A stretch of 64,000 bases of DNA, from the NCBI RefSeq assembly GCF_001314325.1, contig NZ_CP009429.1, forward strand, positions 930,501 through 994,500, in the 5' to 3' direction. Origin of the DNA: Sphingopyxis macrogoltabida. GTDB lineage: Bacteria; Pseudomonadota; Alphaproteobacteria; Sphingomonadales; Sphingomonadaceae. Position 1 is the first letter of the stretch. Each line of letters opens with the position of its first letter. The notes under the pieces were generated by a model, which saw only the letters and a program-made list of their open reading frames with translations, made no database searches and was not told where the DNA came from. The translations under genes were made by a program, and so were the position numbers. Shown one piece after another: positions 41,918-44,165 of the stretch.

Positions 41918-41957
41918 CTGTCACATTATTGTCATAGGGGCGTAACGCTTTTGTCAC
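41918..41957 (+). promoter_or_regulatory. PHO-box-like array (PhoB site) upstream of Nudix-DUF47-pit
   Basis: Half-sites CTGTCAC (41918), TTGTCAT (41929) and TTGTCAC (41951) lie in 11-nt phase, with a weaker GCGTAAC at 41940 filling the fourth slot. The first two are 4 nt apart, exactly the CTGTCAT-N4-CTGTCAT pattern bound by PhoB. The array ends 54 bp before the start codon of the Nudix-DUF47 gene and lies 110 bp from the divergent monooxygenase gene. Confidence 0.8.
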
Positions 41958-42011
41958 CTGGGCGTCCCGCGCCTTGAATCTTCGCCCGAATCTTTGGAAA
42001 GGATCGAGCAT

Positions 42012-43136
42012 ATGCGCCAGATTGCCGTCCTTCCCTATCGATTCGGCGGCCCCGCGCAGGACGGACCGACCGAAATCCTGCTGATCACCTCGCGCGAGAC
42101 GAAGCGCTGGGTGGTGCCGAAGGGCAATCCGCTGACCGGAATGGAACGCCATGCCGCCGCGGCGATCGAGGCCGAGGAGGAGGCGGGCGTGATCGGCGCC
42201 GTCTGCCCGACGCCGATCGGCAGTTATGAATATCGCAAGCGCCGGGCGAACGGCGCATCGATCATGTACAACGTCGAAGTGTTTCCGCTCGCCGTGACCA
42301 ACGAGCTCGACGACTGGAAGGAAATGGACGAACGCGACCGCAAATGGTTCTCGTTCCGCGATGCCGCGTCGGCGGTCGAGGAACCCGATTTGCAGGCGCT
42401 GATCCGCTCGTTCGGCGATGGCGGTTTTCGTGCCGTCGCCCAGCCGCGCGGGGTCGTCCAGAATGTTGCAGACAAAACAGGGGTTAGCTGGATGTTCGCA
42501 TGGTTTCAGCGTTTGCTGCCGCGACAGGGAAATTTCTTCGAATTGTTCGAAAGCCACGCCGCGACGCTGGTCGCCGGGGCGAACGCCTTGTCGCGCATGC
42601 TGCAGGGCGGCGAGGGCATGGCCGACCACGTCCAGGAAATCATCGAGCGCGAGCATGACGCCGATGCGATCACTCGCGAAGTGTTGCAGACAGTTCGCCG
42701 CACCTTCCTGACTCCGTTCGACCGCAGCGCGATCACCGACCTGATCGCCTCGATGGATGATGCGATCGACGAGATGCAGAAGACCGCGGGCGCCGTCGAC
42801 CTCTATGACGTCACCGAATTCGAACCCGAAATGCGCGATATCGGCGGCATCATCGTCGACGCCGCGCGCCTGACAGCCGAGGCGCTGCCGCTGCTGCGCA
42901 ACATTTCGGCCAATGCCGTGCGCCTGCACGAACTGACCGAACGGCTGGTGCGGATGGAAGGCCATGCCGACGAAATCCACGCCGCGGGCCTCAAGCGCCT
43001 GTTTAAGGAACATGGGCAGTCGAACAGCGTCCGCTTCCTGATCGGGCGCGAACTCTACCGTCATCTCGAGCGCGTCACCGACAGTTTCGAGGATGTCGCG
43101 AACGAGATCGACGGTCTGGTTATCGACCACGCATAA
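42012..43136 (+). CDS. Nudix hydrolase fused to a DUF47 (PhoU-like) domain
   Basis: 374 residues in one open frame. Residues 1-135 form a Nudix fold: KRWVVPKGNPLTGMERH then EAEEEAGV; key glutamates E53, E56 and E57 of the box are kept, but two usual positions are M and I. Residues 136-160 are a linker and 161-374 a DUF47/PhoU-like helical bundle. DUF47 proteins bind and regulate Pit-type phosphate transporters. The ATG follows AAAGGA; a TTG at 41994 is less likely. An internal ATG at 42492 could give DUF47 alone. Pit follows by 15 bp. Confidence 0.85.
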   Translation: MRQIAVLPYRFGGPAQDGPTEILLITSRETKRWVVPKGNPLTGMERHAAAAIEAEEEAGVIGAVCPTPIGSYEYRKRRANGASIMYNVEVFPLAVTNELDDWKEMDERDRKWFSFRDAASAVEEPDLQALIRSFGDGGFRAVAQPRGVVQNVADKTGVSWMFAWFQRLLPRQGNFFELFESHAATLVAGANALSRMLQGGEGMADHVQEIIEREHDADAITREVLQTVRRTFLTPFDRSAITDLIASMDDAIDEMQKTAGAVDLYDVTEFEPEMRDIGGIIVDAARLTAEALPLLRNISANAVRLHELTERLVRMEGHADEIHAAGLKRLFKEHGQSNSVRFLIGRELYRHLERVTDSFEDVANEIDGLVIDHA

Positions 43137-43151
43137 GCGGGGGCGTCCACC

Positions 43152-44165
43152 ATGCACGAACTCGCTTTTCCGCTCCTCGTCGGCCTTGTCATCCTCGCGC
43201 TGGCGTTCGATTTTCTCAACGGGCTGCACGATGCGGCGAACAGCATCGCGACGGTTGTCGCGACCCGGCTGCTGCGGCCGGTGCAGGCAGTGCTCTTTGC
43301 GGCCTTTTTCAACTTTGCCGCCTATTTCCTGTCGATCATTTTCCCCGAACTGCACAAGGTTGCCGAGACGATCGGCAAGGGGATCATCGACAAGGATCTG
43401 GTGACGCCCGCCGTCGTGTTCGGGGCGCTCGTCGGCGCGATGTTCTGGAACGTCGTCACCTGGCTCAAGGGCATTCCGTCGTCGTCGAGCCACGCGCTGG
43501 TGGGCGGCATCGTCGGCGCCGGCGTTGCGCACGCCGGGTTCGAAGGGATCGAGTGGACCGGGCTCAACAAGACGGTCATCGCGATTTTCCTGTCGCCCCT
43601 GCTCGGCATGCTGCTCGCGATGCTGGTGATGCTGGTCAGCAGCTGGGCGCTGCGCCGCGCGACCGCCAGCTTTGCCGAGAAGACCTTCCGCCATCTCCAC
43701 CTCCTGTCGTCGGCCGCCTATTCGATCAGCCACGGTCTCAACGACGCGCAGAAGACGATGGGGATCATCACCGTCCTCCTCTATTCGACCGGCTATCTCG
43801 GCGGCGAGTTCCACGTTCCGCACTGGGTCGCGTTCAGCTGCTACATCGCCATCGCGCTCGGTACGCTGTCGGGCGGGTGGAAGATCATCGAGACGATGGG
43901 CGGCCGGATCACCAAGCTGTCGCATCATCAGGGCTTCGCCGCCTCGACCGGCGGGTCGATCATGGTGTTCACCGCCAGCCTGCTGGGCATCCCCGTGTCG
44001 ACGACGCACACGATCACCGGTAGCATCATCGGCGCCGGCATTGCGCGCCGTGCGAGTGCGGTGCGCTGGGGGGTTGCCGGCAACGTCGTCGCGGCATGGT
44101 TCATCACCATCCCGGCGAGCGCGATCGTCGCCGCGATATTTTACGCGATCACCCGCCTGTTCTGA
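43152..44165 (+). CDS. Pit-family inorganic phosphate transporter
   Basis: 337 residues with about ten hydrophobic segments. The PiT repeats are clear: GLHDAANSIATVVAT near 22 and the mirrored GLNDAQKTMGIITV near 196, each with the ND/HD motif. PSSSSHALVGG near 115 and PVSTTHTITGSIIGAG near 282 are typical too. It moves phosphate, usually with H+ or divalent metal, across the inner membrane. It is preceded by the DUF47 fusion on the same transcript and probably shares its PHO-box control. Confidence 0.93.
   Translation: MHELAFPLLVGLVILALAFDFLNGLHDAANSIATVVATRLLRPVQAVLFAAFFNFAAYFLSIIFPELHKVAETIGKGIIDKDLVTPAVVFGALVGAMFWNVVTWLKGIPSSSSHALVGGIVGAGVAHAGFEGIEWTGLNKTVIAIFLSPLLGMLLAMLVMLVSSWALRRATASFAEKTFRHLHLLSSAAYSISHGLNDAQKTMGIITVLLYSTGYLGGEFHVPHWVAFSCYIAIALGTLSGGWKIIETMGGRITKLSHHQGFAASTGGSIMVFTASLLGIPVSTTHTITGSIIGAGIARRASAVRWGVAGNVVAAWFITIPASAIVAAIFYAITRLF

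Follow-up and report, generated by a model that had tools for sequence, protein, structure and literature searches.

A conserved Nudix-DUF47 fusion upstream of a Pit phosphate transporter gene in Sphingomonadaceae

The window, a stretch of 64,000 nucleotides from Sphingopyxis macrogoltabida, carries on its forward strand a gene of 374 codons (42012..43136) that encodes a Nudix domain followed by a DUF47 domain in one frame, as judged from the ORF list, Pfam and homologues. Both NUDIX PF00293 (28.7-30.9 bits, cut-off 21.1) and PhoU_div/DUF47 PF01865 (145.5-147.9 bits, cut-off 24.4) exceed their cut-offs in a Pfam scan of the protein. A gene for a Pit phosphate transporter (PHO4/Pit PF01384, 312.9 bits; 43152..44165, same strand) begins 15 nt after the stop codon of the fusion. 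This order of Nudix, DUF47 and Pit is the one that the first-pass annotation had read from the DNA, and it holds. A Shine-Dalgarno-like GGAAAGGA (41996..42003) can be read ahead of the ATG at 42012; the TTG at 41994, given as the start in the ORF list, seems a less likely start. The window genome (5.75 Mb) has a second, longer Pit-family gene (G000:C1:3674542-3675894), with no DIPP-type Nudix match beside it.

The DIPP-type Nudix domain occupies residues 1-140 (42012..42431), as defined by Pfam, profile search, fold and an AlphaFold2 model. A linker that is predicted to be disordered (residues 141-172, 42432..42527) leads to the DUF47/PhoU_div part, which is of the PitR type by Pfam, model and Foldseek and which, from residue 161 to 374 (42492..43136), is also the predicted second product of the gene. 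The model, built from 48 sequences, is mostly confident over each of two domains (about residues 1-140 and 173-374), and pLDDT drops below 50 between them, at residues 141-172. Its pTM is 0.57, and the relative placement of the two domains is therefore not predicted. In a Foldseek search with the model, the first hit was the PhoU-like structure 3l39 (TM 0.91 on the target), and ranks 2-6, which match the Nudix part, were structures of human DIPPs. By a simple pairwise count, dN/dS is 0.25 in the Nudix domain, 0.22 in DUF47 and 0.54 in the linker (residues 136-153). Both domains are under purifying selection, and on this ground and that of the conserved length a chance open frame in a GC-rich genome is rejected.

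The fusion is widespread among relatives. The homologues examined were the best 120 of 4963 (E up to 1e-3), and each of these 120 covers at least 94% of the query. In the 80 loci kept out of 205, the match spans at least residues 3-372. The family was sampled evenly with 298 genomes, of which 116 had a match and were sorted by hand count: 91 carry the full fusion, 12 a DUF47 gene without Nudix in the fetched stretch, 9 a Nudix domain alone and 2 a DUF47 match that is weak; one has the halves as split adjacent genes (G625) and one has a fusion with frameshifted DUF47 (G723). An even sample of the order (147 genomes) gave 29 genomes with a match, comprising 19 full fusions, 6 with DUF47 but no Nudix in the match, 1 with Nudix only and 3 with weak DUF47. 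With the fusion present in 91 of 298 family genomes, an origin in sequencing or assembly, named earlier as what would undo the finding, is rejected. Fusion length is nearly constant (374 aa in 72 of 99 fusion loci), and within the family sample the fusion persists down to 46% protein identity. In 179 of 180 fused loci the next gene downstream is Pit, and the remaining locus (L037) ends near its contig end; the 180 comprise 80 contigs and 100 genome stretches, and some loci are counted twice (for example, L176-L178 and L111-L113). The genomes are related, and none of the genome and locus counts given here is a count of independent cases. Damaged copies were also seen: in L194 (G723) the DUF47 part of the fusion is frameshifted, and in L018 Pit is split over two frames, through either sequencing error or decay.

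A sample of 385 genomes of the class contained three fusions besides that of the window, all in another family, f46. The complete fusion-Pit unit is found there in G184, G311 and G407 (L111-L113, L176-L178). In the DUF47 tree, both f46 fusion rows that were included fall among rows of Sphingomonadaceae (f1), which suggests transfer; horizontal transfer of the fusion-Pit unit is therefore probable on this placement. Many forks of this tree are weak. The label ‘fused’ needs 7 changes on it, 3 of them forced by starred branches, and stand-alone DUF47 genes are nested among fused ones at several places. L199, L200 and L250 form a clade (support 84) with L181, whose genes are split, and L188, which lacks Nudix, beside the other loci of the family. 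In the Nudix tree, two stand-alone Nudix genes (L195 and L196, from G616 and G647) lie among fused ones (support 83), with DUF47 and Pit not found in the stretch. They are possibly fusions that lost the DUF47 half.

Upstream of the fusion gene lies a 7-4-7 direct repeat that resembles a PHO box, with half-sites CTGTCAC and TTGTCAT separated by ATTA (CTGTCACATTATTGTCAT; 41918..41935, forward strand). The repeat begins 94 nt ahead of the ATG, and a third half-site, TTGTCAC (41951-41957), follows in phase, 22 nt after the second. In the PHO box consensus, a 4-nt A/T-rich spacer separates two CTGTCAT repeats (PMC3131613). Among 67 dereplicated fusions, the best upstream PHO-box score is at least 11 in 26, at least 10 in 35 and below 10 in 32, and the box is thus conserved in only part of the loci. 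For comparison, shuffled sequences reach 11 in 0.3% and 10 in 2.3% of cases, and in-gene stretches in 0 of 67. A related arrangement is known from S. meliloti, whose OrfA we take to be a member of the PitR/DUF47 (PF01865) family. In that species pit is described as repressed on Pi starvation, and the PHO box of orfA-pit lies just before the start (PMC3131613).

The DUF47 half has a start signature of its own. At its N-terminus the window gene has an in-frame ATG (M161; 42492..42494) with a Shine-Dalgarno-like AGGGG (42479..42483) 8 nt before it, both on the forward strand. A start codon at this position is conserved in 177 of 180 fused loci (ATG 157, GTG 14, TTG 6), and three have none (L199, L200 and L228). 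After dereplication, 64 of 67 fusions retain a start-type codon, and 57 of these 64 have a Shine-Dalgarno-like 4-mer at -17 to -5, compared with 229 of 1314 other in-frame ATG, GTG and TTG codons of the same genes (41 of 64 and 165 of 1314 for a stricter motif); this comparison, like that of GC3 at codons 156-161, was chosen after the sequences had been seen. In 62 dereplicated fusions, GC3 falls to 0.47 at codons 156-161 (0.81 overall), lower than in any other window of six codons; apart from the junction, the lowest windows start at codons 4-6, close to the known start. In 55 dereplicated fusions with a nearby ATG, GC3 of the six codons before the site is 0.58 against 0.83 for the gene. The 12 without a nearby ATG show a smaller dip (0.70 against 0.83) that is not clearly different from the rest. 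With synonymous codons as the null, the signal of Shine-Dalgarno duplex energy at M161 is weak: -7.0 kcal/mol is only a modest gain on the null value of -5.5, and a value below 0.05 was reached in 12% of 123 genes. In L100, a stand-alone DUF47 gene, an in-frame stop is followed by CACAGGGGTAAGCCG-ATGTTTGCA, and this start region is nearly identical to the window counterpart ACAGGGGTTAGCTGG-ATGTTCGCA.

Because the DUF47 half has its own conserved start signature, both the fusion and free DUF47 are expected, and on these sequence grounds free DUF47 is probably made in addition to the fusion, giving two predicted products from one gene. Separate translation of the two halves had been put forward by the first-pass annotation as an observation against the fusion. 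It probably applies in part, to the DUF47 half with its own start signature, and falls short in that the fusion product is expected as well. In L199 and L200 the linker is proline-rich and the start codon absent. The fusion appears obligate there and in L228, which also lacks the codon, and the obligate-looking fusions of L199 and L200 would argue that the covalent form matters.

The association between Nudix and Pit extends beyond the fusion. Our survey of this link covered Alphaproteobacteria. With the window protein as the query, there were 59 non-fused Nudix places in the class sample of 385 genomes, and for 50 of them a surrounding stretch of about 7 kb was analyzed. The nine left out were G188, G205, G285, G319, G383 and G463:C47, already fetched beside DUF47-Pit; G328, where Pit is 2.7 kb distant; G450, where Nudix and Pit share one frame; and G294, a weak case. 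A Pit gene lies near the stand-alone Nudix gene in 26 of the 50 loci, and the HMM found no DUF47 in the stretch analyzed at any of them. Among loci of Nudix paralogues in Sphingomonadaceae, linkage to Pit was 0 of 10. A profile search of the same 385 genomes gave 65 Nudix loci in 58 genomes; 37 of the 65 have a listed Pit no more than 2.5 kb away and 28 do not, a count that leans upward because most profile (A2) rows were chosen as Pit neighbours, so that 26 of 50 is the less biased figure. The Pit places among the matches listed numbered 146 as used, with the last four, short fragments of which G166 has two and G218 and G175 one each, left off. The largest gap in the 37 linked pairs is 956 bp. 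They represent 37 of the 45 genomes with both matches listed and 21 of 30 families, whereas random placement would give about 0.1 pairs, assuming a 4.2-Mb genome and uniform placement. Six arrangements occur: Nudix then Pit on one strand (15, in G450 in one frame), convergent (11), with DUF47 between (5, of which 4 fused and 1 split), Nudix after DUF47-Pit (4), divergent with DUF47 (1) and Pit then Nudix (1). The 11 convergent pairs are therefore not one operon; adjacent convergent genes were seen in several families (L285, L291, L296, L299, L300, L303-L305 and L307-L309). Where DUF47 is present, Nudix may be fused to it, lie upstream on the same strand (L171, L181), be divergent (L172) or lie 3' of Pit (L163, L165, L166, L168); in the class sample, Nudix is absent from the stretch at 9 of 15 DUF47 loci (L161-L175). 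In the Nudix tree, which has few columns and was used here only for this point, Pit-linked genes sit at several places. A shared partner was not found near eight Pit-less Nudix loci, where 10 proteins were scanned.

The long Pit proteins of these Nudix-Pit loci look Pit-type. That of L262 matches the solved phosphate transporter 6l85 (3.5e-71); four such proteins scanned against NCBIfam were below the cut-offs for both PitA and sulfate permease, with the higher scores for sulfate permease. In the draft genome G450, one frame (L321:1769-3112, G450:C336) joins the first half of a DIPP-type Nudix to Pit minus its N-terminus. The contig ends inside Pit, and this frame reflects a deletion, a misassembly or a fusion of Nudix with Pit. 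Taken together, the gene neighbourhoods suggest that Nudix is a recurrent neighbour of Pit in Alphaproteobacteria and that the fusion is one form of this wider association.

Such a link could reflect housekeeping rather than regulation of the transporter. The Nudix enzyme would clear a toxic or side-product phosphoanhydride at plentiful phosphate, or supply Pi, and would lie beside Pit for co-regulation only; the fusion would be a neutral merger that the internal start renders harmless. The linkage in loci where no DUF47 was found nearby and in convergent orientation agrees with this explanation, as do the free DUF47 that the internal start would keep available and the stand-alone DUF47 genes nested among fused ones. 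A neutral merger is harder to reconcile with the near-constant length of the fusion, its retention down to 46% identity and the three loci in which it appears obligate. We regard the housekeeping explanation as possible but doubtful, and a role of the fusion in regulating Pit as the better account.

The nature of the Nudix domain bears on what that role might be. The canonical Nudix box is GX5EX7REUXEEXGU. As noted in the first-pass annotation, the window protein retains the catalytic glutamates E53, E56 and E57 (42168..42182, forward strand) and has two altered box positions, which are M44 for the box Glu and I52 for the box Arg. All 99 fusion loci compared have the three glutamates. Nearly all fusions have other residues in place of the box Arg and Glu (Arg at position 52 in 2 of 99). 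Across 48 rows that include 24 database proteins, the glutamates are kept in 47. The exception is the database protein P0095, which has V and T for E56 and E57 and a changed G38, representing a sequencing error or a dead Nudix domain. In a wider Nudix group of 34 rows, E53 and E57 are kept in 34 and E56 in 33, and the altered positions also vary, with Glu in 10 and Arg in 16. A degenerate or dead Nudix domain in the fusion is thus unsupported by the altered box, P0095 aside, since the glutamates are invariant in the fusions and the box changes are group-wide. Loss of the box Arg and Glu could nevertheless mean weak catalysis.

DIPPs are the best solved relatives of the Nudix part by both sequence profile and fold. 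In the profile search, yeast DDP1 (1.9e-19) and human DIPP1 (8.3e-19) scored well ahead of the best Ap4A hydrolase (1.6e-10). Several basic positions of DIPP1 have counterparts in the fusion. R28, which aligns with Arg41 of the DIPP1 ligand loop L1, is invariant in 99 of 99 fusions and is Arg in 26 of the 34 wider rows. R32, R108, R110 and W112, aligned with DIPP1 R45, R115, R117 and W119, are likewise invariant in the 99 fusions. R77, aligned with DIPP1 R89, is Arg in just 15 of the 34 rows. For the DIPP1 ligand loops (S39-S40-R41, R89-H91 and K133), the Ser/Arg loop is kept as T-S-R, and H91 and K133 are without a clear match.

The analogy to eukaryotic diphosphoinositol enzymes, which had been called ‘only suggestive’, is therefore stronger as far as relationship is concerned. 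The part of it that concerns the substrate does not carry over as well, and inositol pyrophosphates are an unlikely substrate in bacteria. Characterized DIPP-type enzymes are described as cleaving phosphoanhydrides of polyphosphate, Ap5A/Ap6A and inositol pyrophosphates (PP-InsPs) (PMC8064635). Polyphosphate or a nucleotide is the likelier ligand, since the authors of a Nudix review state that they knew of no evidence of PP-InsP5 use in bacteria or archaea (PMC5389931).

The Nudix domain might also act purely as a ligand sensor with little or no hydrolase activity, binding a polyphosphorylated ligand and telling DUF47 to open or close Pit. The replacement of the box Arg and Glu in nearly all fusions, the tethering of Nudix to a regulator and the conserved basic positions aligned with ligand-loop residues of DIPP1 would all fit. 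Pure sensing appears unlikely given the three glutamates, which are invariant in the fusions and nearly so in the wider set (exception P0095), and given that stand-alone relatives share the same box changes. The idea of two separate proteins in a shared frame, with the released Nudix and free DUF47 as the functional forms and the long product as a by-product, is improbable: the internal-start signature is strong and some close relatives have the two halves as neighbouring but separate genes (L181, L171), but the Nudix start region is also low in GC3, the split arrangement occurs in only 1 of 298 family genomes, and with no stop between the halves (by definition of the fused set) any ribosome starting at 42012 makes the fusion.

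We therefore lean, with modest confidence, towards a Pit accessory regulator that carries a tethered enzyme or sensor module and is made as two products from a PhoB-controlled operon. S. aureus PitR, together with its transporter, is reported to control the phosphate two-component system (PMC13170248). It is because of this role and of the substrates of DIPP-type enzymes that we read the fusion as a Pit regulator with a hydrolase or sensor for stored phosphate. By analogy to PitR, the DUF47 part may act on the Pit transporter encoded by the next gene. The DIPP-type Nudix part, held on a flexible linker of about 30 residues, would bind and probably hydrolyze a phosphoanhydride-rich metabolite near the importer. 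By analogy to the characterized enzymes, the most likely candidates for this ligand would be inorganic polyphosphate and polyphosphorylated nucleotides, Ap5A/Ap6A for instance. The stored-phosphate state of the cell could thereby be followed by phosphate uptake or by the signalling of uptake. One mRNA would probably yield both the fusion and free DUF47, so that only part of the DUF47 assemblies would carry the enzyme. The PHO box may place the operon under PhoB, whose control could run in either direction.

A broader proposal, which we offer only tentatively, is that DIPP-type Nudix proteins constitute an unnamed class of alphaproteobacterial Pit accessories that couples import to a diffusible phosphoanhydride signal, either polyphosphate or a polyphosphorylated nucleotide. 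In sphingomonads the class would have been fused to PitR, and the internal start would set the ratio of enzyme-bearing to plain regulator. If true, this would be a bacterial counterpart, in logic, to eukaryotic inositol-pyrophosphate/SPX control. A conserved enzyme linked to an importer, whether by fusion or by genome position, indicates a concrete class of ligand and offers simple point mutants. The Nudix-Pit association could also help in annotating alphaproteobacterial Nudix genes without an assigned role. The parts of the fusion are known families. In the titles and abstracts that we searched (most subscription papers and all bioRxiv preprints were outside the coverage), neither a Nudix-DUF47 fusion, of which the first-pass annotation had known no description, nor a Nudix-Pit gene link was found to be described.

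Several known systems share elements with this locus. The fusion resembles the PitR/DUF47 regulators of Pit, such as S. aureus PitR, in its PF01865 match over the cut-off, its PhoU-like fold (3l39) and its position adjoining Pit; on NCBIfam TIGR00153 it scores 51.9-54.1 bits, under the cut-off of 104.3. It differs from PitR in bearing an N-terminal Nudix domain and is thus not a single-domain protein. The tree of a PitR survey took single-domain PF01865 proteins only, and the word ‘nudix’ is absent from its main text (PMC13170248). Another non-PhoU neighbour of pitA is the small membrane protein SCO1846, described as often occurring in genomes without PitR; nothing in that description suggests a relation to Nudix (PMC13170248). 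In actinobacteria, a NUDIX gene lies beside the polyphosphate kinase gene ppk (SCO4145/SCO4143, and EV45_RS33230/RS33235 in P. rosea) and is marked ‘Activation’ in a table of phosphate genes that also contains a Pit-DUF47 pair (PMC8269224). Unlike the halves of the fusion, ppk and NUDIX are separate genes there. Finally, the fusion resembles the DIPP-type Nudix enzymes human DIPP1/NUDT3 and yeast DDP1 in keeping the catalytic glutamates and in that T26-S27-R28 occupies the place of the Ser-Arg ligand loop; for the R89/H91 and Lys133 loops of DIPP1, conservation is not clear. In contrast to DIPP1/NUDT3 and DDP1, it is bacterial, has the box Glu and Arg replaced and is joined to a regulator of Pi transport.
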